From a virus: a stretch of 30,390 bases of DNA. The stretch lies in IMG/VR virus record IMGVR_UViG_3300042923_000938, positions 1-30,390 of that record; one strand, given 5' to 3'. Both the position numbers and the translations under genes were made by a program. Shown here in pieces: positions 2,173 to 28,102 of the stretch (its first letter is position 1; every line of letters starts with the position of its first letter). The notes under the pieces are model-generated. The model saw nothing but the letters and a program-made list of their open reading frames with translations. It was not told where the DNA came from and made no database searches.

Positions 2173-2325
2173 TTATTTCAAATAAATAATTGATAAAATG
2201 ATCCATGCCATCCAATCTAGTAAAAATGCTCCACATATGCAATAACCTAAAAATATGTTTAACCAAGTACCCTGTCTTTCAATTCTTTCTTTTGGTTCTT
2301 CTGGTTCTTTAATATTGTTTATAAT
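2173..2325 (-). CDS. Putative small membrane protein with no canonical start (ATT at 2325)
   Basis: A 50-codon frame reading IINNIKEPEEPKERIERQG and then a long hydrophobic stretch (WLNIFLGYCICGAFLLDWMA...), ending at TAA 2173. It fills an otherwise empty gap between two genes. A perfect AGGAGG lies at 2342-2337. The GTG three bases after it runs into a stop after four codons, and the frame shown has only ATT (2325) or ATA (2322) before the coding-like part. Either the gene starts at an isoleucine codon with a long spacer, or one base is missing between the GTG and the rest. Confidence 0.45.
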   Translation of the reverse strand: MINNIKEPEEPKERIERQGTWLNIFLGYCICGAFLLDWMAWIILSIIYLK

Positions 2326-2360
2326 ATAAACACTTTCCTCCTATTAAAACAGATAATTTA

Positions 2361-2938: not shown

Positions 2939-3259
2939 TTATTCATTTTCTTTAGTTATCCATGCTTGATAACCAGCATAAATTAATTCTTTCTTCCTCT
3001 TTTCTGCTTCCTTTTCAGTTAATCTTGTATCTTCTGATAAAATTAAATCGCCATCTTGATAGTAGCTAACCTTATACGTTGTATCGTTCCACTTGTCACA
3101 TTTATTTGTTAAACTCCACAATCCATCCTCAATAAACCATTCATCACCGAATTGCTCAAATGCCGCCTTTAACTTCCAATCATCTTCCATGATGACTGCT
3201 TCGTCTTTATAATTTTGTTCAATATATGCCAACAAATGTTCTTTAGAAATAGCTTTGAT
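2939..3259 (-). CDS. Hypothetical acidic protein, apparent AUC (or AUA) start
   Basis: The first standard start is TTG at 3235, but it has no ribosome binding site. Upstream codons in frame read IKAISKEHLLAYIEQNYKD, a continuous amphipathic helix. AAGGATGTGAT (3275-3265), 9 of 11 bases of the ideal binding site, lies just ahead of ATA (3262) and ATC (3259), with an in-frame TGA before them. The likely start is therefore an isoleucine codon. The protein is acidic with a Trp-rich middle (DEWFIEDGLWSLTNKCDKW) and a basic C-terminal helix. Function unknown. Confidence 0.65.
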   Translation of the reverse strand: MKAISKEHLLAYIEQNYKDEAVIMEDDWKLKAAFEQFGDEWFIEDGLWSLTNKCDKWNDTTYKVSYYQDGDLILSEDTRLTEKEAEKRKKELIYAGYQAWITKENE

Positions 3260-3300
3260 TATTAATCACATCCTTATAACTTTTTTGTCAAATTTATATA

Positions 3301-3775: not shown

Positions 3776-3791
3776 TTTGTTTCACCTCGCA

Positions 3792-3865
3792 TACTATATG
3801 TAGTTTTTATTTAGTTTATTTATCTATATATTGTATCTAAAAAGCAATAAAATGTTGGTTTATTC
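3792..3865 (-). repeat. Repeated intergenic module (terminator-like hairpin plus putative promoter), copy A
   Basis: The region aligns with 17302-17377. Both share TACTATATGTAGT, a TATTTA-rich block, TATCTAT..TTGT.TCTAAAAA and a hairpin. On the minus strand the order is: stop codon of 3880-4215 nearby, hairpin AATAAA/TTTATT (3864-3846) followed by CTTTTTA, an A/T-rich block, the short ACTA/TAGT inverted repeat, then the next ribosome binding site. This copy has a degenerate AATATTAAATA core. Confidence 0.6.
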
Positions 3866-4906: not shown

Positions 4907-5077
4907 TCACTTCTTTCTATTATTTAATTTTATATTAAATAAAACAACTTCGAACCAATCACAAATCTTATGTATTACTAAGATGATCACAGACATTGCA
5001 ACCAACAATAAAATTACAAATAATGACACTATCATAGCTGATATGTAATACTCATACCATAATTACAGTAATGGCAT
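4907..5077 (-). pseudogene. Small membrane protein frame with TAA at codon 5
   Basis: ATG at 5077 stands 6 bases behind AGGAG, but the frame reads MPLL then TAA (5065-5063). It continues open for 51 codons with an obvious membrane span (MIVSLFVILLLVAMSVIILVI) and a basic tail ending NNRKK, with its stop at 4907. The first internal ATG (5035) has no ribosome binding site. Either the gene is broken by a nonsense codon, or the first ORF is a four-codon leader with re-initiation at 5035. It is the first coding unit behind the promoter 5147-5175. Confidence 0.5.
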
Positions 5078-5091
5078 ATTTTCTCCTATAT

Positions 5092-9358: not shown

Positions 9359-10477
9359 CTAGAATGGTAAGTTATCAAGTCCGTCTAATTCTTTAATTAA
9401 GCTATATTCCTCTTTCTTTTTTAATCCATTCTTTATTAAATAGTCTTGATAATATTTACACTCATCATGTACTCCGCATAATACACTACAATAATAGGAA
9501 TCTTGTGGTTCAATCTCTCCTCGTTCCCAGTGATCTTCATCTTTACCTCGATGTTGAATATCTTTAATATCCTTAGTCATTTCTTCCTTAAGTTCATTTA
9601 GTGTTTCGTCTGTTATTTCAGGGTAGACATAACATTCTTCAAAAGAGTATTTATTTTGTATTTCTTGTGGTAAATCAGTAATTGAATTTTTCTTAACACA
9701 TATTTCAACTTTCAATTCAATATCAATATCATTCATATCTGTTAATTCTTTTAGATCTCGTTTTAATGGTGTTTTAATCTTCTTAACCCACTGATGGCGA
9801 TCCCCAATGGTTGTTTTAATTTTCCCGTTTTTTTGCTCAAATGATATATTTACATATTTCATGAACAGCCATCTACATTTAATTTTATTAATTGGTATGC
9901 CACCTTGAATTAATCCTAGAGCATATAATAATAACTGTTTTCCATGTTCTGCTACTTGTTTACCTTTATACATAGTGCTTGTTTTATAATCAGTAATAAT
10001 AAAATTACCATCTTTATCCTTATGTATAGCATCAACATAACCCATAAATAAATTACCATTAATATCAATCCATAGAATTTTTTCAGTTGCTACTTTATCA
10101 CTCATTGTCTTATGATGTTTAAAGAAATCAATAACACAATTCTTATATTTATTTCTCATTTTTTCATTTTTATATTCATCACTACTAAACTTGTAATCAG
10201 ACATTTCTACATCTAAAAAATCAGTTTCAAATTGTGCTGCTAATTCATTTTTTCTTAACTTATGATTATAATATTTCTCCATAATATCATGAGCATATGT
10301 ACCACACAGAGTATAGATATTATCTTTTCCTCTAATATGTTTAATTCTTGATAAATAATATTCATATGTACAATTATGTAATGTGTTAATACGGCTATAA
10401 CTCCATAGCATTACATGATCACCGTATTTATCCGTAAATCTTTTTGGTATTTTAATTTTAGATCGTTCTGCCAACAA
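9359..10477 (-). CDS. PD-(D/E)XK nuclease with Fe-S cluster cysteines (Cas4/AddB type)
   Basis: 372 residues, TTG start at 10477 behind AAAGGATATGAT, overlapping the primase stop. Motifs: GTYAHDIMEKYY (His 63), FMGYVDAI (Asp 149), FIITDYKTS (Asp 163, Lys 165) and GKQLLLYALG (Gln/Tyr motif). These give a complete RecB-family active site. Cys 36 and the C-terminal group Cys 330, 334 and 340 have the placement of the 4Fe-4S cluster that staples the fold in Cas4 and AddB. It is expected to cut single-stranded or flap DNA during replication or recombination. As I recall, SPbeta has a RecJ-like exonuclease (yorK) at this place, so this may be a replacement. Confidence 0.85.
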   Translation of the reverse strand: MLAERSKIKIPKRFTDKYGDHVMLWSYSRINTLHNCTYEYYLSRIKHIRGKDNIYTLCGTYAHDIMEKYYNHKLRKNELAAQFETDFLDVEMSDYKFSSDEYKNEKMRNKYKNCVIDFFKHHKTMSDKVATEKILWIDINGNLFMGYVDAIHKDKDGNFIITDYKTSTMYKGKQVAEHGKQLLLYALGLIQGGIPINKIKCRWLFMKYVNISFEQKNGKIKTTIGDRHQWVKKIKTPLKRDLKELTDMNDIDIELKVEICVKKNSITDLPQEIQNKYSFEECYVYPEITDETLNELKEEMTKDIKDIQHRGKDEDHWERGEIEPQDSYYCSVLCGVHDECKYYQDYLIKNGLKKKEEYSLIKELDGLDNLPF

Positions 10478-10478
10478 A

Positions 10479-11486
10479 TCATATCCTTTCTCTATGCTTC
10501 AATAAATATATGAATTTTCGTCTTCCACAGTCTACTGGGCTATCTTTTTCACCAAGCAATTTCCATCTATCATTTATATATGAACATGTACGAAACATAC
10601 TAATTTTCTTGCAAAGAGACTGTAAATATTCACTTTCAACGTCATTATCAAAGGCAATTACAATCTCAACGTTTAATTTGATTAATAATTTTAGCTGAAA
10701 ATCAGAAATATCATGACAACCCACAGATACAGCATTAGGAAAACCCATCATGTCTGATTTATAAACACTTTTTTCTGCTTCATAAACTAATACAAATCCT
10801 TGTTTCTTAATATCTTCTTTATTTAGACTCAATCCATATAAATTTTTACTTTTTTCATATTTATAACCATCAACTGGAAAGTATTTAGGTATATTTAATT
10901 CTTCATAAGCATGATTAACTGTCCTTCCCACGAGTCCTACTACCTTTGTTTCGTCATTCCATGCAAAATGAGGAAATACAATTCGATTACTCTCTATATC
11001 AAATTTAATATTATATTTATCTATTACGTTTTGAAATAACCCATCTCTCTTTATTAAATCAATATGAGGGACGCTTGAATATTTATCTAAAATAGACATA
11101 TCATACATCGGTAATTCATCTTTATCTTTTTGTTTTCGCTTTATCTTATTAAAAATGTTAAGATAACTGTTTTTATTTTGATGATTGTATGATATATCTA
11201 CACCACACAATGCTGCACATTTATGTAAAGCTGTAGGAAAATCACAATGGTCAATATACATAATTAAATTATATATATTACCTTTAATTGTTTCTCCTTT
11301 ATTAAATATACGGACATTTAAAAATTCATTTATAAATATTGATACTTTTGATCCATCATTATCATCAGGCAAGGCACACCTGATCTCTTTACCATATGAA
11401 TGAAATTTATGGCAGCCTATTTTTTCAGCTATATCTTCAATAATATCTTTTTCATATATGTATTTTCTTAGTTCCTTAGCATCCAA
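10479..11486 (-). CDS. DNA primase with TOPRIM domain (YorJ-like)
   Basis: 335 residues, TTG start at 11486. N-terminal 90 residues look like a reduced CHC2-type module: IGCHKFHSYGKEIRCALP, then VSIFINEFLNVRIFNKGETIKG. It lacks a full set of zinc ligands. The TOPRIM core follows: GFVLVYEAEKSVYK (Glu 236/238) and VEIVIAFDNDVES (Asp 280, Asp 282). It makes RNA primers or assists the DnaB-like helicase encoded just upstream, and is shorter than host DnaG (about 600), lacking the helicase-binding domain length. Stop and next start overlap, so the operon is translationally coupled. Confidence 0.85.
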   Translation of the reverse strand: MDAKELRKYIYEKDIIEDIAEKIGCHKFHSYGKEIRCALPDDNDGSKVSIFINEFLNVRIFNKGETIKGNIYNLIMYIDHCDFPTALHKCAALCGVDISYNHQNKNSYLNIFNKIKRKQKDKDELPMYDMSILDKYSSVPHIDLIKRDGLFQNVIDKYNIKFDIESNRIVFPHFAWNDETKVVGLVGRTVNHAYEELNIPKYFPVDGYKYEKSKNLYGLSLNKEDIKKQGFVLVYEAEKSVYKSDMMGFPNAVSVGCHDISDFQLKLLIKLNVEIVIAFDNDVESEYLQSLCKKISMFRTCSYINDRWKLLGEKDSPVDCGRRKFIYLLKHRERI

Positions 11487-11510: not shown

Positions 11511-13001
11511 TTATAGGTCATATGGTATATTACAAATTCCTAATTCTAAATACTTTAATGTTCCAAGTTCTTGTTCTGCAAGTATTTGAAATTCTTGGCT
11601 TCTTCCATTACGATTCTTTTCAATAAAGATAACAATATATTTTTTATTTTGATCTAACAGAATCTCTTTACCTGATAATATTGATCCACCTAATGGTTCC
11701 CATGCTTTAATTTCATTTTTTTCACCAGGATATTCATCATTTCGCAATCGACGCTGTAATAATGCAACACTTGCTACATCTAAAACGTTTTTTGCCATGC
11801 CAATATTATTCGAACTCAAAAATCTTTGTAGTGCTGCCCCTTTTTGAAGTTGTAATGTAACAATAAGAGATACATTTAATCCTGAAGGTTTACACAAATC
11901 ATCAAATTTTCTCATATCTTCCTGCATTGATAACCAAAATGATTCATTATTGTCTCGATCAGATGATATTTTAAAAGTATCTAATATAAACTTATTAACT
12001 CCTAATGAAGCATATTTCCTTACTATTCTAATGAATTGTTTACTAGAATAAGATTTGAAATGACATAATATAATTTCATTATTTGACATTTTTTCTTTCA
12101 AATATTGGCTTGCTTTATGTAATAAATCTCTCTCATTATCACTAAAATGTCCTTGTCTCCATCTTTTCTTATTAAATTGTTGCGACTCATCATGATCTTT
12201 TAAATATTTATTATTTATTATCCAAGTTAATAATTCTTGTTTCCATTTAATATGATCTTGTTCATTTAAAGCAATTACACAAGGTTCTCCTTCTTCAAAA
12301 ACAGCAGAAAGTATTTGTTCAATAAGCCATGTTGTTTTACCGGCCCCTGATAATCCGCCGATAAGATAAATTTGACCTTTAATAATTCCACCAATTTCTT
12401 CATTTAAAATTGGGCTAGGAATTGGCATACCAACGTTTAGTCCTTTATCAGCTTCACTAATAATTTCATCTAAATCATCTTCAAGTTTGTGTGATTCAAT
12501 ACCATTGTCTGCTTTCACAAATACATTATTTAATTTAGCTGTGAAGAAATCATAAAGTTCATTTACATTAAATTCTTTCACATCATCAACTAAACCTGAA
12601 TAAAATGACAATTCATCGATCATATCATACATAGCAGACCATTTAATGAAATCTTTTATATAAGAGTCTATGTTTTTTATATTTGATACACTGGAAACTA
12701 AACTTACGGTATTATATCCATTAAAAATTTTATAAGTTGATTCAGCTTGAGGATAATCTTTTATATATAGATCAACAGCCATTTCATCAATTTCCACTAT
12801 ATTTTTTGCTGCAATTTTTTCTCCAATTGTATAAAAAAACTTCCATACATCATTTTTAAACATTTTTTTATCAAGTTCGTTAAAGTCAAAATATAAATTT
12901 GGATCTTTCCATAAGCAACCAATAATGTTTGCTTCAATTGGATTCATAATGTCTTTAATTTTTTTCTTAATAACGTCCTTCTCTGTCAGTACTTTAACCA
13001 C
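11511..13001 (-). CDS. Replicative DNA helicase, DnaB/SF4 family (YorI-like)
   Basis: 496 residues. The N-terminal helical domain (EANIIGCLWKDPNLYF) corresponds to the DnaB N-domain. The RecA core has Walker A GGLSGAGKTT (215-224), an ALNEQ acid motif near 245, Walker B-like VNKFILDTFKIS, and the sensor region LIVTLQLQKGAA. Start taken as GTG at 13001, with GGTGAT six bases ahead; the nearby ATG is out of frame. It unwinds the fork as a hexamer for the polymerase and primase of the same operon. Confidence 0.9.
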   Translation of the reverse strand: MVKVLTEKDVIKKKIKDIMNPIEANIIGCLWKDPNLYFDFNELDKKMFKNDVWKFFYTIGEKIAAKNIVEIDEMAVDLYIKDYPQAESTYKIFNGYNTVSLVSSVSNIKNIDSYIKDFIKWSAMYDMIDELSFYSGLVDDVKEFNVNELYDFFTAKLNNVFVKADNGIESHKLEDDLDEIISEADKGLNVGMPIPSPILNEEIGGIIKGQIYLIGGLSGAGKTTWLIEQILSAVFEEGEPCVIALNEQDHIKWKQELLTWIINNKYLKDHDESQQFNKKRWRQGHFSDNERDLLHKASQYLKEKMSNNEIILCHFKSYSSKQFIRIVRKYASLGVNKFILDTFKISSDRDNNESFWLSMQEDMRKFDDLCKPSGLNVSLIVTLQLQKGAALQRFLSSNNIGMAKNVLDVASVALLQRRLRNDEYPGEKNEIKAWEPLGGSILSGKEILLDQNKKYIVIFIEKNRNGRSQEFQILAEQELGTLKYLELGICNIPYDL

Positions 13002-17285: not shown

Positions 17286-17301
17286 GTAAATTCCTCCAGT
17301 G

Positions 17302-17377
17302 TACTATATGTAGTGTGTTTATTTAATATTATATCTATTTGTTGTGTCTAAAAACAGATAAAACTTTCGTTTTATTC
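17302..17377 (-). repeat. Repeated intergenic module, copy B, with terminator-like hairpin
   Basis: Aligns with 3792-3865. On the minus strand: hairpin ATAAAAC-GAAA-GTTTTAT (17375-17358), closed by a GNRA-type tetraloop, then CTG and T5 (17354-17350), which is terminator-like though A/T-rich. Then TTTAGACACAAC, TATAAT overlapping the core AATATTAAATA (17330-17320), the short ACTA/TAGT inverted repeat, and the ribosome binding site of 16146-17285. It probably ends one unit and starts another. Confidence 0.65.
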
Positions 17378-18129: not shown

Positions 18130-18215
18130 TGCTCAAGACGGGATTCGAACCCGTATGATTGATACCAATCGCAGGATTTTAAGTCCTGTGCGTATACCTG
18201 TTTCGCCACTTGAGC
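18130..18215 (-). tRNA. tRNA-Leu (anticodon UAA)
   Basis: Full cloverleaf with acceptor GCTCAAG/CTTGAGC, D-arm GCG/CGC, anticodon arm CAGGA-CTTAAAA-TCCTG (anticodon TAA at 18181-18179), long variable arm (GATTGGTATCAATC), T-arm ACGGG-TTCGAAT-CCCGT, and discriminator A at 18130. CCA is not encoded. It reads UUA, the commonest leucine codon in this AT-rich window, so it may boost phage translation. It is not a stop suppressor. It has its own promoter at 18304-18332. Confidence 0.95.
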
Positions 18216-18303
18216 CTATTGAAAGAGAGAACCTCCACTCGCCCTCATGCTATACCCACTATTTCTCTTTGCATAGCTTCCAACTTTCTTAATTAGTATC
18301 TTT
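18216..18303 (-). other. Leader between promoter and tRNA-Leu with hairpin and two mini-frames
   Basis: The transcript leader holds a 7-bp stem GCTATGC/GTATAGC around a 15-nt loop. It also holds two very short frames that overlap as ATGA: 18274-18245 (MQREIVGIA) and 18248-18216 (MRASGGSLFQ). The second stop touches the first base of the tRNA. AAAGTTGGAAGC precedes the first. They may be chance; the stem is in any case cut away from the mature tRNA. Confidence 0.35.
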
Positions 18304-18332
18304 ATTATATTTAATATTGTTTATCCTGTCAA
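18304..18332 (-). promoter_or_regulatory. Consensus promoter for the tRNA
   Basis: TTGACA (18332-18327), 17-bp spacer, TATAAT (18309-18304), core AATATTAAATA at 18318-18308. A degenerate second copy (AAAATGAAATA) lies 29 bp upstream at 18347-18337. Confidence 0.85.
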
Positions 18333-18336
18333 GTGT

Positions 18337-18548
18337 TTATTTCATTTTAATTAATTCCTCTGTTTGCTGCTCAATGAGTTTCTTTTTCTCTTCTAATAAT
18401 TCCATTTCTTCTTTAATTGCACGCTGATAGCTTTCATAATTTGTTTTACTGTTTAACTTTTCTAGTTGTAGCTTGGTTAGTTTTTGTTCTAATGGTAAGA
18501 ATTTAACTAACCACTTTGCTTTGAATAGTTATATTCATCTTTTGTCAT
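18337..18548 (-). pseudogene. Small coiled-coil protein gene with a one-base deletion
   Basis: ATG at 18548 behind AAGGGATTATAACTA gives MTKDEYNYSKQSG and stops at TAG 18507. One frame over, the sequence is open from before this point. It reads SKAKWLVKFLPLEQKLTKLQ, then a long Glu/Lys-rich coiled coil (ESYQRAIKEEMELLEEKKKL) to TAA at 18337. Adding one A to the AAA run near 18528 joins them into a 70-residue protein. The total length of 212 is one short of a multiple of three. No start exists for the second frame alone. Confidence 0.65.
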
Positions 18549-21782: not shown

Positions 21783-21807
21783 CTCATTGATTAATGATTA
21801 TATGAAT

Positions 21808-21836
21808 ATAATATTTAATATTATTTATATTGTCAA
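21808..21836 (-). promoter_or_regulatory. Promoter of the XRE regulator with repeat core
   Basis: TTGACA (21836-21831), 17-bp spacer, TATTAT (21813-21808), core AATATTAAATA at 21822-21812. Confidence 0.8.
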
Positions 21837-21910
21837 TAGGAAAGTATCAAATTTTAAATCCTTTATTCATAAGGGATAAGGAACGCCCATTTTGCGATAA
21901 AATCACACAT

Positions 21911-22003
21911 TTATCCGACAATAAGTTTTGAGATGATTTCCTTTGTATATTCTGATAAGTGATTCCAATCCATTGCTAACTTATTCAATGTTTCATACGC
22001 CAT
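21911..22003 (-). CDS. 30-residue protein behind a strong promoter
   Basis: Taken from ATG 22003, which has AGAGATGAT, close to the ideal binding site, seven bases ahead. It reads MAYETLNKLAMDWNHLSEYT and ends at TAA 21911. An in-frame ATG at 22030 would add MKKKRDDIK, but it sits only about ten bases after the -10 box and would be nearly leaderless. Helical. It is the only gene between the promoter 22041-22069 and the next promoter at 21836. Confidence 0.55.
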   Translation of the reverse strand: MAYETLNKLAMDWNHLSEYTKEIISKLIVG

Positions 22004-22040
22004 TTTTATATCATCTCTTTTCTTTTTCATCTGTATCTAT

Positions 22041-22069
22041 ATTATATTTAATATTATATTGATTGTCAA
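22041..22069 (-). promoter_or_regulatory. Perfect consensus promoter with tandem repeat cores
   Basis: TTGACA (22069-22064), 17-bp spacer, TATAAT (22046-22041). Core AATATTAAATA in the spacer (22055-22045) and a second exact copy at 22084-22074, 29 bp upstream, as at 629-672. Confidence 0.9.
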
Positions 22070-22086
22070 CATTTATTTAATATTTT

Positions 22087-23385
22087 TTAATACCAACTTT
22101 CTTCTGTTTTATCTGGTCTTAACCGTTTAAACCGTGCAAATCTGATTGAATCTTTGCCATTTTTATCTTTACTAGGCTCAGTATATTCTATTTCAATGAT
22201 TGTATTAAGATACTTATCTTGATTATTCCAAATATCTTCTCTTAGTATATCTGTCCATCCGCTGCCAACCTCAGTATTATACCCTTGATATTTAAAAATA
22301 GCAGATCCTAGCTTATTTTTATTCTTCCCTTGTCCTTCTAAAAACCCAATCATACGAACATCTGCATTATTTACATCTTTACATTTTAAGATATTTCCAC
22401 TTCTTTTGCATTGGTATGGCAAATCAAGATTAAGCATAATTCCCTCATGATTGAGTGACAATTGGTCGTTTAATAATTGTTTAACCATATTCCAATTGTT
22501 GCCACCATACAAGACTGGTACTTTTTTAATAAATTTCAAATCAGAGTATTCCGCAAAAATATTTTCTATCTTATTTCTACGCTTGCTATAATTATCTTTA
22601 GATTCTCCATCTTGGAAATCCTTTAATGAAAGTAAATCGAAACAGTTAAAAATCAATCCTTCCTTAATATTATTTGACCTAGACACTTTCATTGTCTCTC
22701 GATATAGATCACCACTAGATAAATTTGAATCATTTTGTAAGATTAATTCACCATCATAAACTAAATCATTATTTGGTAGTTCTTTAAATTCCTTTTCAAT
22801 ATCATTCAAACCTGTTACTATTTGACCTTGGCGAGTAAAAAATTGTATCCCATTTTGAGTATTGATAGCTATTATACGCTGACCATCTAATTTTTGTGTA
22901 ATCCAAAAATCACCATGATATTTTTTAAGTAATTTATCTTTTTCATCAGCATACTTTTTAGCAAGTTGCAACTCAAAGCTTGAAATAAATCCTTTTCCGA
23001 AAACTGAATTTACTACTTTTGTACTTGCTCCAAGTCTTACCTTTTTGCATACAGAATCTAATGTAAACTGTTTTAGTTCTTCATCATCAAATGTATTTAA
23101 GAACCCTGCGACCTTCTGACAGTCGATGTCACGACCTGTATTATGAGCTTTAAGATACGTAATCATAGTTTTAAAATCATCAAATGGTGAGTCTATATGT
23201 ACATCTGATTGCTTTTGTATTTTCTTACTCTGAACACCGAATATCCAGAATGGATCGAGATTTACTTTTAACCAGAATCTGAAAGAATCATCATTCTTAT
23301 GAGCAGATAGAATAGCCATTTTATCTAGTCGCCCTGGCGTGTTTTGAAGCTTCAATACTATTTTATGTATTTTTTCAAGATCCAA
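22087..23385 (-). CDS. ATP-dependent DNA ligase
   Basis: 432 residues, TTG start at 23385 behind GAGGTGATTTATTT. Nucleotidyltransferase core: KLDGQR with the AMP-accepting Lys 165 (KxDG motif I), FFTRQG (motif III region), DLVYDGELIL, NHEGIMLN (motif IV) and NILKCKD (motif V). The C-terminal part carries an OB-type domain (IEIEYTEPSKDKNGKDSIRFAR). It seals nicks in phage DNA; low-GC bacteria themselves use NAD ligase for replication. SPbeta also encodes an ATP ligase (LigB/YoqV), shorter than this one. Confidence 0.95.
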   Translation of the reverse strand: MDLEKIHKIVLKLQNTPGRLDKMAILSAHKNDDSFRFWLKVNLDPFWIFGVQSKKIQKQSDVHIDSPFDDFKTMITYLKAHNTGRDIDCQKVAGFLNTFDDEELKQFTLDSVCKKVRLGASTKVVNSVFGKGFISSFELQLAKKYADEKDKLLKKYHGDFWITQKLDGQRIIAINTQNGIQFFTRQGQIVTGLNDIEKEFKELPNNDLVYDGELILQNDSNLSSGDLYRETMKVSRSNNIKEGLIFNCFDLLSLKDFQDGESKDNYSKRRNKIENIFAEYSDLKFIKKVPVLYGGNNWNMVKQLLNDQLSLNHEGIMLNLDLPYQCKRSGNILKCKDVNNADVRMIGFLEGQGKNKNKLGSAIFKYQGYNTEVGSGWTDILREDIWNNQDKYLNTIIEIEYTEPSKDKNGKDSIRFARFKRLRPDKTEESWY

Positions 23386-24998: not shown

Positions 24999-25619
24999 TT
25001 AATAATCTTCCCAACTTAATTTTTTAGCTTCTCTTTTTTCTAATTCTCGCATCTCATCAGCAAAAGTTAATTTATCTCGTTTCTTTTCTTCATCAATTTC
25101 TTTAATAATGCTCTTCACATCAACCCAATTCTTAGCTCTATGTGTATCTTTTTTACAATCTTGATTCCACGGTTGGTCAAATAAGATTGTCTCATGTGGA
25201 AACTTTTCAATGTTAGTGTTGTTATCATCGATTAGAACATCTACATTTACTAAGCTCTTAGCCTTACAAACAATTAAATTATCCAAATTAATATGTGGAA
25301 AATATGTATATAGAAATTCAACTTTCTTTTGTAAAAACTGTGACTGGGTTGCGGTGATCACAAAAATTTGATGACCTGCATTAACCAATTCTCTTGTTGT
25401 CGATTGAGAGAATTGAATCGGCTGCATATGGCTAATCATTTCATTAGAAATTAGATCATATATTTTCAATCCACATTCAGGTTTTACATATTTGTGAAAG
25501 TCCCAAGTCTTCCAGTCTGATAGCTTTAAGTTGTTATCACCATATCTTTCTCTATACAAATTTAACCAGCACTCTGAAAAGTTGCCAAGTACATTATCTA
25601 AATCGATACCAATCTTAAT
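24999..25619 (-). CDS. HAD-family 5'(3')-deoxyribonucleotidase, AUU start
   Basis: 206 residues if begun at ATT 25619, nine bases behind AAAGGAG. The first standard start (TTG 25559) would remove the catalytic motif. Upstream codons read IKIGIDLDNVLGNFSECW, which is HAD motif I with its two aspartates (DxD). Motif II is VITATQS and motif IV is VDVLIDDNNTN. Enzymes of this NT5C-like family remove phosphate from dNMPs and tune the nucleotide pool; here the gene would work with the dTMP-kinase-like protein and polymerase. The true start must lie before motif I, and no ATG, GTG or TTG exists there in frame. Behind promoter 25652-25680. Confidence 0.8.
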   Translation of the reverse strand: MKIGIDLDNVLGNFSECWLNLYRERYGDNNLKLSDWKTWDFHKYVKPECGLKIYDLISNEMISHMQPIQFSQSTTRELVNAGHQIFVITATQSQFLQKKVEFLYTYFPHINLDNLIVCKAKSLVNVDVLIDDNNTNIEKFPHETILFDQPWNQDCKKDTHRAKNWVDVKSIIKEIDEEKKRDKLTFADEMRELEKREAKKLSWEDY

Positions 25620-25651
25620 ACCAAATCTCTCCTTTCTGATTATGTATCTAT

Positions 25652-25680
25652 ATTTTATTTAATATTTTTTATTGTGTCAA
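25652..25680 (-). promoter_or_regulatory. Promoter with repeat core for the nucleotidase
   Basis: TTGACA (25680-25675), 17-bp spacer, TAAAAT (25657-25652), core AATATTAAATA variant fully matching at 25666-25656. Confidence 0.8.
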
Positions 25681-25695
25681 GTTAAAACTCAGAAT

Positions 25696-25935
25696 TTATT
25701 GCACGTTTCCTAATTCATCCGAAAAAACAAAATCTTTACCAATTGAATCTCGTGGAAATTCGGTTACTTCATTTGTTCCTTTCCTTTGTTGAACATAAGA
25801 TTTATTATTAGACTTTGATTCTGCTAAAATAGGATATAATTGTCCTTCTATAAAATCTTCTCCATATGGATTCTTAATTGTTCTAATAAACTTTGCAAAG
25901 TCTTCATAATCATCATATTTATATTTAATCATCAT
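25696..25935 (-). CDS. Hypothetical protein
   Basis: 79 residues, ATG at 25935 overlapping the upstream stop by four bases (ATGA type), behind AGGAGAAATAA. Aromatic and acidic N-terminus (KYKYDDYEDFAKFIRTI), beta-like C-terminus (EFPRDSIGKDFVFSDELGNV). Last gene before the promoter at 25652-25680. Not recognised. Confidence 0.7.
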   Translation of the reverse strand: MMIKYKYDDYEDFAKFIRTIKNPYGEDFIEGQLYPILAESKSNNKSYVQQRKGTNEVTEFPRDSIGKDFVFSDELGNVQ

Positions 25936-26201
25936 TTATTTCTCCTTTTGTATTTAATTTTAAAGTATGTATTTTCTATCCACCACTTGAAATCATGAAT
26001 CTTATCATTTACCCAGTCTGCTCCATCACCCAACCAAACTAGTGCAAATGCTAAACCGTAAAGAAAACAGTAGGGAATAAACCAAATCGCATTCAAAATG
26101 CTATGTAGAACCTTATATTCCTTCGTCTGTCTAATTTTCTCTGTAGCATAGACAATGTGCAACTTTTGTAATTTGATCGTTTTACGCGATTTAATATCCA
26201 T
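25932..26201 (-). CDS. Small membrane protein
   Basis: 89 residues, ATG at 26201 behind AAGGAGAAATTAA. Basic N-terminus, a hydrophobic hairpin-like region near residues 35-58 (AIWFIPYCFLYGLAFALVWL), and an aromatic basic tail (WWIENTYFKIKYKRRNK). Function unknown. Confidence 0.7.
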   Translation of the reverse strand: MDIKSRKTIKLQKLHIVYATEKIRQTKEYKVLHSILNAIWFIPYCFLYGLAFALVWLGDGADWVNDKIHDFKWWIENTYFKIKYKRRNK

Positions 26202-26212
26202 TTAATTTCTCC

Positions 26213-26989
26213 TTACCAAATTACTTCTGTATTTTTCTCATAATCAAATTCTTTAAATATCCTCTCAGCAATTTTTACACCATCTTCAATTTCATTATTT
26301 CTCTTTAGTGATTCAGTAAAACCATCATTCAATTTATCAATTGATTCTTTTGTATATTTAATTTGATTTTCAATTTTTTCGATGATCTTTGTATATCCTT
26401 TATATAGTGTTTTACGCTTAAAAATAGCGCTGTATAGATCAGACAAGCTCTTAATTTCCTTGTAAATATGCTTCCACTGTGTATTTTTCTCAGCAATTTT
26501 ATTTTCTAATCGACGAATTTCTTCTTTCAGTTTCATAATATCTTCTATTTTCTTAACTTCTAACTCATCTTCAGTTAAATATTTTCTCAATGAATATTTT
26601 TTATTTGAAATGTTGAATCTTCCAATTAAGTTGTTATCTGTTTTAATGATGAAATACCTTCTGCCATAATCCCAAACTACTTTTAAATTATACTCATTGG
26701 TAATATTGTTTTCTTTCAACCATGATTGAAAATAGTTATTCATTTTATAACCAATGTATTCTCTCAAACTATTACTTGGATAACCTTCACCACTTTCTGC
26801 TTCATAATCAATTGCTTCAAAGATAAAATGGAAAGTATTTATTTTAGATGTCAGTTGTGTATTTGAATCAGTGAAAAACAATTTAGGATTATCACTTGCC
26901 CACTTCAGAAAATAAAATGCACGATTTAACTTGTCTTGGGTGGATTGGATCTTGTCAACAAAGTATTCTAGATCATGGGTTTTAACCAT
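26213..26989 (-). CDS. Hypothetical protein with coiled coil
   Basis: 258 residues, ATG at 26989 behind AAAGGAGAAGATAAATA and overlapping the upstream stop by one base. The N-terminal half is globular (KLFFTDSNTQLTSKINTFHF, WDYGRRYFIIKTDNNLIG). From about residue 145 a coiled coil follows (MKLKEEIRRLENKIAEKN, then KIIEKIENQIKYTKESIDKL). No catalytic motif. Not recognised. Confidence 0.75.
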   Translation of the reverse strand: MVKTHDLEYFVDKIQSTQDKLNRAFYFLKWASDNPKLFFTDSNTQLTSKINTFHFIFEAIDYEAESGEGYPSNSLREYIGYKMNNYFQSWLKENNITNEYNLKVVWDYGRRYFIIKTDNNLIGRFNISNKKYSLRKYLTEDELEVKKIEDIMKLKEEIRRLENKIAEKNTQWKHIYKEIKSLSDLYSAIFKRKTLYKGYTKIIEKIENQIKYTKESIDKLNDGFTESLKRNNEIEDGVKIAERIFKEFDYEKNTEVIW

Positions 26990-27276
26990 TATTTATCTTC
27001 TCCTTTTTCATATTTATTAATAATTTGATCAATTGCTTCAGCTAAAAAATTAGCTCCTTCTTCGTATTCATCTTCAGGATCAAATAGTGATAATCCAATT
27101 TCATGTTTAATCTCTTTAATCATTTCAGGATAATTAGGAATAAATTGAATATCAGTTTCTGTAGTAATTAGTGCTCCACACTCTCCTAATATCTTCTTTT
27201 GTGGTTCAGATAACGGCTTTGGAACGGATATTAAATCTTCTTTTTCATAAGACTTATATTTATCAAATCCTAACAT
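26989..27276 (-). CDS. Hypothetical acidic protein
   Basis: 95 residues, ATG at 27276 behind AGGAGACTCTGCA. Acidic, helical C-terminus (EEGANFLAEAIDQIINKYEKG). Coupled to the next gene by TAATG. Not recognised. Confidence 0.7.
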   Translation of the reverse strand: MLGFDKYKSYEKEDLISVPKPLSEPQKKILGECGALITTETDIQFIPNYPEMIKEIKHEIGLSLFDPEDEYEEGANFLAEAIDQIINKYEKGEDK

Positions 27277-27326
27277 TGCAGAGTCTCCTATATACTATAT
27301 TTAGCAGTAACAATAAAAGCCAAATT

Positions 27327-27488
27327 TTAACTACGTTTAATTTGATATTCATAACTCTTTTTTAAACTATTAAGTTCAATTTCCATACGATCAATCAGTT
27401 CTTTAAAATCAACTTGATCGAGTCCGCCCATTTCTAAACTATCTTTCAATAGACTAACAACTCTCCATCCATTGCCATCAGTATTCAT
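27327..27488 (-). CDS. 53-residue helical protein
   Basis: ATG at 27488 behind AAGGAGGAATAATTT, a strong site. Reads MNTDGNGWRVVSLLKDSLEM, then LDQVDFKELIDRMEIELNSL, a probable helical dimer. Stop TAA at 27327. Not recognised. Confidence 0.65.
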   Translation of the reverse strand: MNTDGNGWRVVSLLKDSLEMGGLDQVDFKELIDRMEIELNSLKKSYEYQIKRS

Positions 27489-27530
27489 AAATTATTCCTC
27501 CTTACAATTAAAGTCGATAAATTTTTCCTT

Positions 27531-27749
27531 TTAACCTTTTCTATTTTCATCAATAAAAACACGAACATCATTTCTCCAATCCCAAATCCTATTTACTGAA
27601 ATATCTACAAATTCATTAAAACTATTAATTTCTTGTATTGATAAACTATCTACTGGGTTTTGTACAATAGCTGACAAATCTCGAATTTCTCTTGAAATAT
27701 CATTAATTCTTTCAAATAACCACTTTTGATACTCTTGATCTTTAATCAT
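27531..27749 (-). CDS. Hypothetical helical protein
   Basis: 72 residues, ATG at 27749 behind GAGGAGAATGTATAA. Helical with heptads (WLFERINDISREIRDLSAIV) and an aromatic end (NRIWDWRNDVRVFIDENRK). Not recognised. Confidence 0.7.
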   Translation of the reverse strand: MIKDQEYQKWLFERINDISREIRDLSAIVQNPVDSLSIQEINSFNEFVDISVNRIWDWRNDVRVFIDENRKG

Positions 27750-27762
27750 TTATACATTCTCC

Positions 27763-27924
27763 TCATTCGTTTAATATAGTTTTTAGTTCATTCCAACAAT
27801 CTTCACACAGTATTACAAAGAAAGTTGATTCACCTTCGTCAAAGTCTAATTCTCGAATAATCTTCTTGCTGCCACAGCATGAGCACTTATTCATGAATGG
27901 TTCTTTAGCAATGTGAATGAATAT
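27763..27924 (-). CDS. Small zinc-finger protein, apparent AUA start
   Basis: The frame reads IFIHIAKEPFMNKCSCCGSK, then LDFDEG and LCEDCWNEL, so C-x2-CC plus C-x2-C forms a likely zinc site. The first ATG (27894) has no ribosome binding site and would cut the IHIAKEPF lead. AAGGGAG is five bases ahead of ATA 27924, and the GTG at 27930 is part of that site. The end of the gene upstream overlaps the binding site. 53 residues with this start, 43 from the ATG. Function unknown. Confidence 0.6.
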   Translation of the reverse strand: MFIHIAKEPFMNKCSCCGSKKIIRELDFDEGESTFFVILCEDCWNELKTILNE

Positions 27925-27926
27925 AA

Positions 27927-28076
27927 TCACTCCCTTCTTGATTTTTTCTGATACTCATCTTCAAGATTACGTTCCTCAAACAATTTAATATTTTGTTTGT
28001 GCCTGTCCGAATGTTTCTTAATCACTTCACAGCCATTCTTATGTACAAGATATTTAACTAAATCTGTTAGTTTGAT
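27927..28076 (-). CDS. 49-residue basic protein, apparent AUC start
   Basis: The frame IKLTDLVKYLVHKNGCEVIK ends at TGA 27927 with a highly charged tail (NLEDEYQKKSRRE). There is no ATG in it, and the first GTG or TTG codons lie well inside. AAGGTGGTGAT, 10 of 11 bases of the ideal binding site, stands one base ahead of ATC 28076. It fills a 340-base stretch that would otherwise be empty. Helical; not recognised. Confidence 0.6.
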   Translation of the reverse strand: MKLTDLVKYLVHKNGCEVIKKHSDRHKQNIKLFEERNLEDEYQKKSRRE

Positions 28077-28102
28077 AATCACCACCTTTTAAAACCTGTA
28101 TT

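Follow-up and report, generated by a model that had tools for sequence, protein, structure and literature searches.

In Escherichia coli, infC and pcnB begin with AUU, a start codon that limits their expression, and infC is autoregulated by IF3. In Staphylococcus aureus, infC, ccpN and citZ start with AUA and cvfC1 with AUU; extended Shine-Dalgarno (SD) sequences precede infC, ccpN and cvfC1, and in poor medium the tested sites yield about 10% of what AUG gives, and in rich medium ccpN reaches up to 30% (PMC13009471). Streptomyces sigR has a GTC start that is reported to be repressed by IF3 (PMC5472188).

Here we describe a phage fragment on which translation of two genes (starts at 25619 and 3259) would be initiated at AUU or AUC/AUA through strong or extended SD sequences; a further start of this kind is probable at 2325, and those at 27924 and 28076 are possible. 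To this reading we assign a probability of roughly 0.75. These genes resemble infC, ccpN, cvfC1 and citZ of S. aureus in the isoleucine start codon, the strong or extended SD, the suitable spacing and the Bacillota host; the S. aureus sites, however, belong to bacterial genes and were characterized by ribosome profiling and reporters, whereas here several phage genes on a single fragment are identified from sequence alone. The AUU start is shared with infC and pcnB of E. coli, which, in contrast, are single bacterial genes. Likewise, sigR uses a non-canonical start as a translational brake, but it differs in the codon and is a single bacterial gene. We found no report of AUU, AUC or AUA starts in phages in the open-access papers searched.

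The fragment and its sibling contigs

The window, that is, the whole stretch of DNA analyzed, is a linear IMG/VR virus record (IMGVR_UViG_3300042923_000938) of 30,390 bases, with ~29% GC (~71% AT) and almost every gene encoded by the minus strand. Its DNA polymerase shares ~60% identity with the enzymes of Geobacillus virus E3 and Psychrobacillus phage Perkons and, judging by the resemblance of its replication genes to those of these two phages, the window is a metagenomic piece of a large Bacillota phage. No GenBank phage matched it at the DNA level; three sibling contigs come from sister samples, namely G001 (17.4 kb), G002 (17.6 kb) and G003 (32 kb).

Short intergenic stretches are alike within and between the sibling contigs (window positions 3785-3864, 17291-17376, 18296-18352, 21807-21914, 22039-22165 and 25641-25700) and are perhaps repeated promoters comparable to the sequence at 25652-25680. 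Sibling homology ends at or beside start codons at window positions 3259 and ~27922, and at L013:6001 and L014:5724, the upstream DNA being unrelated, as if cassettes of genes had been swapped and joined at the start. A mobile element or intron behind the homology ending at 3259 and near 27924 was considered and dropped, no shared or intron-like element being visible. Upstream of the ORF at 4907-5090, a well-placed ATG meets a stop four codons later (SD-ATG CCA TTA CTG TAA), possibly a tiny leader ORF or a broken gene. In G001 (L017, reverse complement, ~2539), TAG replaces the TGG of the window ~16 codons into the gene that starts at ATG 24228. Furthermore, the RecJ-like gene of G002 (L018, ~10756-10995, minus strand) and G003 (~18149-18400, plus strand) is split at ...GAT CCC TGA CGG..., where a +1 shift at CCC_TGA would give the DHH motif ADSDPDGLSSS, an arrangement suggestive of programmed +1 frameshifting as in prfB.

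Predicted isoleucine start codons in the window

The preliminary description of this DNA had proposed that five isoleucine codons behind strong SDs serve as starts. Each of the five codons is present, with its SD, at the place given there, but the support is unequal: two starts are firm (25619 and 3259), one is probable (2325) and two are possible only (27924 and 28076). The features concerned are as follows.

2173-2325, minus strand: 50-aa protein with a hydrophobic stretch, probable start ATT 2325; the sibling also has ATT only
2337-2342, minus strand: SD AGGAGG of the 2325 gene, a good SD at a poor aligned spacing of 11
2939-3259, minus strand: small conserved phage protein (phrog_7491), start ATC 3259 (or ATA 3262), from alignment with homologue ATG
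3265-3275, minus strand: extended SD AAGGATGTGAT of the 3259 gene, duplex -12.7 kcal/mol
24999-25619, minus strand: NT5C-type (HAD) 5'(3')-deoxyribonucleotidase, 206 aa, start ATT 25619, from Pfam and homologue alignment
25629-25637, minus strand: SD AGAAAGGAG of the 25619 gene, aligned spacing 8
25652-25680, minus strand: promoter-like TTGACA-17-TAAAAT before the 25619 gene, consensus match 11/12
27763-27924, minus strand: small CxxC protein, possible start ATA 27924, with ATG 27894 also possible; SD AGAAGGGAG / GTGATT
27926-27936, minus strand: extended SD AAGGGAGTGAT of the 27924 gene, duplex -15.5
27927-28076, minus strand: 49-aa ORF, possible start ATC 28076, from SD pairing
28078-28088, minus strand: extended SD AAGGTGGTGAT of the 28076 ORF, duplex -14.4

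The deoxyribonucleotidase had been singled out as the strongest case, with motif I lying ahead of the first standard start. Its product matches Pfam PF06941 at 121.7 bits (cut-off 24.8) over residues 3-172, with motif I (DxDxV) in the form DLDNV; the frame lacks ATG, GTG and TTG between the preceding in-frame stop and the ATT, and its first standard codon, TTG 25559, is downstream of the catalytic DLDNV. Moreover, Ile1-Lys2 lines up with Met1-Lys2 in yorS and in two further phage homologues, and the SD spacing falls within the range of ATG genes, which peaks at 6-8. These comparisons confirm ATT 25619 as the predicted start codon. The ATT recurs only in the near-identical G001 (99.3% identical there, although the two differ at other positions, among them an indel in the leader).

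For the phrog_7491 gene, ATC 3259 aligns with the ATG of the 90%-identical G002 gene and with the annotated ATG in phages CM1 and BM15, and residues 2-9 are conserved in homologues whose ATG starts at the same place. The alignments confirm ATC 3259 as the predicted start, and ATA 3262, one codon upstream, may also be the codon used; the weak codon is not conserved in the closest relative, G002, which has the ATG. In the 2325 gene no standard start precedes the hydrophobic stretch, and the G002 counterpart (76% DNA identity) likewise has none and carries ATT at a spacing of 7, so that the weak codon is shared here; a search for relatives returned none beyond this known sibling. On this evidence ATT 2325 is probably the start.

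At 27924, an in-frame GTG (27930) overlaps the SD and has weak pairing of its own (AGAAA), ATG 27894 lies ten codons inside the gene, and the G003 homologue carries CTA at the ATA position. At 28076, GTG 28082 and GTG 28085, both in frame, overlap the SD, and a homologue search for this ORF found none. Both codons are possible starts. The earlier assertion that ATG, GTG and TTG are all missing from the place required of the start thus stands at 25619, 3259 and 2325 but is inexact at these two sites with their in-frame GTGs. The N-terminal alignment suggested at the same time placed Ile opposite a homologue Met at 25619 and 3259, whereas the other three sites had no informative homologue.

The aligned SD spacing is 8 at 25619, 6-9 at 3262/3259, 5-8 at 28076, 4-5 at 27924 and 11 at 2325. 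The SD duplexes of the five sites range from -10.2 to -15.5 (median -14.0), as compared with window medians of -9.3 for ATG genes and -11.8 for TTG genes.

Recurrence in related phages

Relatives of the polymerase were fetched (68 loci) and genes were called by codon usage, yielding 1,475 non-redundant genes, 96 of which have no standard start backed by a fair SD; 47 of the 96 have a strong SD. Among in-frame slots at an aligned spacing of 7-9 from a strong SD, 18 of 37 hold ATT, ATC or ATA (jointly ATH), against ~3.2 expected; at spacing 8 the count is 8 of 10, and outside 7-9 the excess is weak. When the window and its siblings are removed, ATH still fills 15 of 31 slots (p 1.5e-8). It had been argued that the conservation of AT with variation in the third base speaks for start codons, and the survey bears this out in that ATH codons, not others, are enriched at the SD-appropriate spacing. 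By the automatic criteria the window is not an outlier among the surveyed phages. The same procedure applied to 713 Heyndrickxia and Peptostreptococcus genes returned a single properly spaced isoleucine-codon gene, infC (ATT), which serves as a positive control of the method and provides no host rate because the stretch had been fetched for containing infC.

Half of the strong-SD ATH calls (22 of 44) could be compared with a homologue reaching its own start. Ten of these 22 lie at an offset of -2 to 0, one of the ten having an adjacent ATG; in the ATG controls exact agreement was found in 48 of 69. The ATA of the L025 and L023 nucleases corresponds to ATG in L027 and Perkons, the ATA of the L025 thymidylate kinase to ATG in E3, and the ATT of recJ in G002 and G003 sits one codon from the E3 ATG. 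The two calls at offsets +1 and +2, like those at +9 and +10, match a downstream ATG and count as false; also judged false were the survey hit in the polymerase of L055 and those in which an ATG adjoins the isoleucine codon or a conserved ATG follows it closely. With all surveyed phages pooled, the SD energy of ATH calls, false ones included, is -10.4, hardly stronger than the -9.9 of ATG genes. Taken together, these sequence comparisons indicate that isoleucine-codon starts do extend to sibling and related phages, and do so more often than expected by chance.

In Geobacillus virus E3 (L006), a strong SD and ATT 35218 lie 18 codons upstream of the annotated start (35272) of a hypothetical gene, suggesting that the annotation is truncated in this published phage.

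Weak starts are repeated in a PD-(D/E)XK nuclease family, whose member in the window (9359-10477) starts with TTG. The predicted start is ATC in L075/76/79 and in L052/53/54, two groups ~66% identical, ATA in L025 and L023, and ATC in L055; standard starts are TTG in L058/64/77/81 and ATG in L048/51. In both ATC groups an in-frame stop immediately precedes the ATC, and the differences among the codons from the ATC to the next Met are mostly synonymous, which suggests that these codons are translated. Weak starts occur in 5 of 30 nuclease lineages, whereas the count across three other replication families is 2 of 91 (p 0.01, a post hoc comparison in which the L052 group was counted by hand).

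Alternative explanations

The alternative that fares best accepts that the isoleucine starts are used and denies a purpose to the low output: the third base would have been lost through AT-biased mutation or the joining of upstream DNA, the loss being tolerable with a strong SD. The ~71% AT composition is compatible with such neutral decay, as is the 3259 gene, which has ATC where its 90%-identical sibling has ATG and whose homology to that sibling ends exactly at the start codon. However, ATC is kept between nucleases only 66% identical, and the concentration of weak starts in that family, post hoc as the comparison is, also speaks against decay, which we regard as possible, if the lesser expectation. 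The repeated weak starts of the nucleases would point to selection for low output, the ATG in the sibling of the 3259 gene to low output that is tolerated.

If instead translation truly began at standard codons that lie downstream or overlap the SD (TTG 25559, TTG 3235, ATG 27894 or GTG 28082), the upstream frames would be open by chance. The in-frame GTGs at 27930, 28082 and 28085 and the ATG ten codons into the 27924 gene could be taken this way, but a start at TTG 25559 would remove catalytic motif I, residues 2-9 of the 3259 protein are conserved in homologues that begin with ATG there, and the downstream codons have weak or no SDs. As a general account this is distinctly unlikely, though at 27924 and 28076 it may hold.

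A phage-encoded change of initiation, by a factor or an initiator tRNA of its own, might be sought in the single tRNA genes of the contigs.

Window, 18130-18215: tRNA-Leu(UAA)
G001 (L017), 11730-11804: tRNA with CAU anticodon
G003 (L019), 12078-12153: tRNA-Ile(UAU)

The latter two could be thought to fit; yet in our reading the G001 tRNA has no initiator-type GGG/CCC anticodon-stem pairs, and tRNA-Leu is the only tRNA of the window. No phage initiator tRNA was found, nor was IF3 in 16 phage records, mostly fragments, and we consider such a change very improbable. Sequencing or assembly error, or broken genes, might be suspected in a metagenomic assembly with an internal stop in another gene of G001, but is scarcely credible because siblings (ATT at 25619 and in the 2325 gene) and diverged orthologues (ATC in nucleases 66% identical) repeat the ATH starts in frames that are otherwise intact.

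Proposed mechanism and implications

Initiation at AUU, AUC or AUA through a strong SD is accordingly the reading we prefer. We propose that the ordinary initiator tRNA of the host would read these codons, that the strong or extended SD (AAGGnGGTGAT-like) would extend the pairing with the 16S 3' end beyond that of the core motif, and that the ribosome so held would stay in register and accept the mismatched third base. By analogy with the known bacterial cases, formyl-Met would still be the first residue and output would be a fraction of AUG output, restrained by IF3. We infer the same mechanism as in S. aureus, which the window sites fit in that their SD duplexes exceed those of the window's ATG genes; output would be low because a strong or extended SD drives initiation at a weak codon, as at the S. 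aureus sites with ~10% of AUG output. Given the promoter-like sequence before the 25619 gene, that gene may fairly be read as one transcribed well but started weakly, and the likely effect would be that some enzymes of DNA and nucleotide metabolism stay low despite abundant mRNA.

That the phage holds these proteins low is plausible in view of SDs stronger than those of ATG genes and the repeated weak starts of the nuclease family. The further notion that large Bacillota phages have been selected to use AUU, AUC and AUA as a third level of start strength for enzymes of DNA and nucleotide metabolism, their genes being co-tuned by host IF3 in the manner of infC, is speculative and rather doubtful.

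Judged by these comparisons, the feature is largely real: a start type already known from a few bacterial genes, here predicted several times on a single phage fragment and again among its relatives. Gene callers limited to ATG, GTG and TTG would miss or truncate such phage genes, with the loss, in the present case, of a catalytic motif. Furthermore, several phage genes sharing a rare start type would provide a natural set for relating start strength and IF3 to the dosage of phage proteins.
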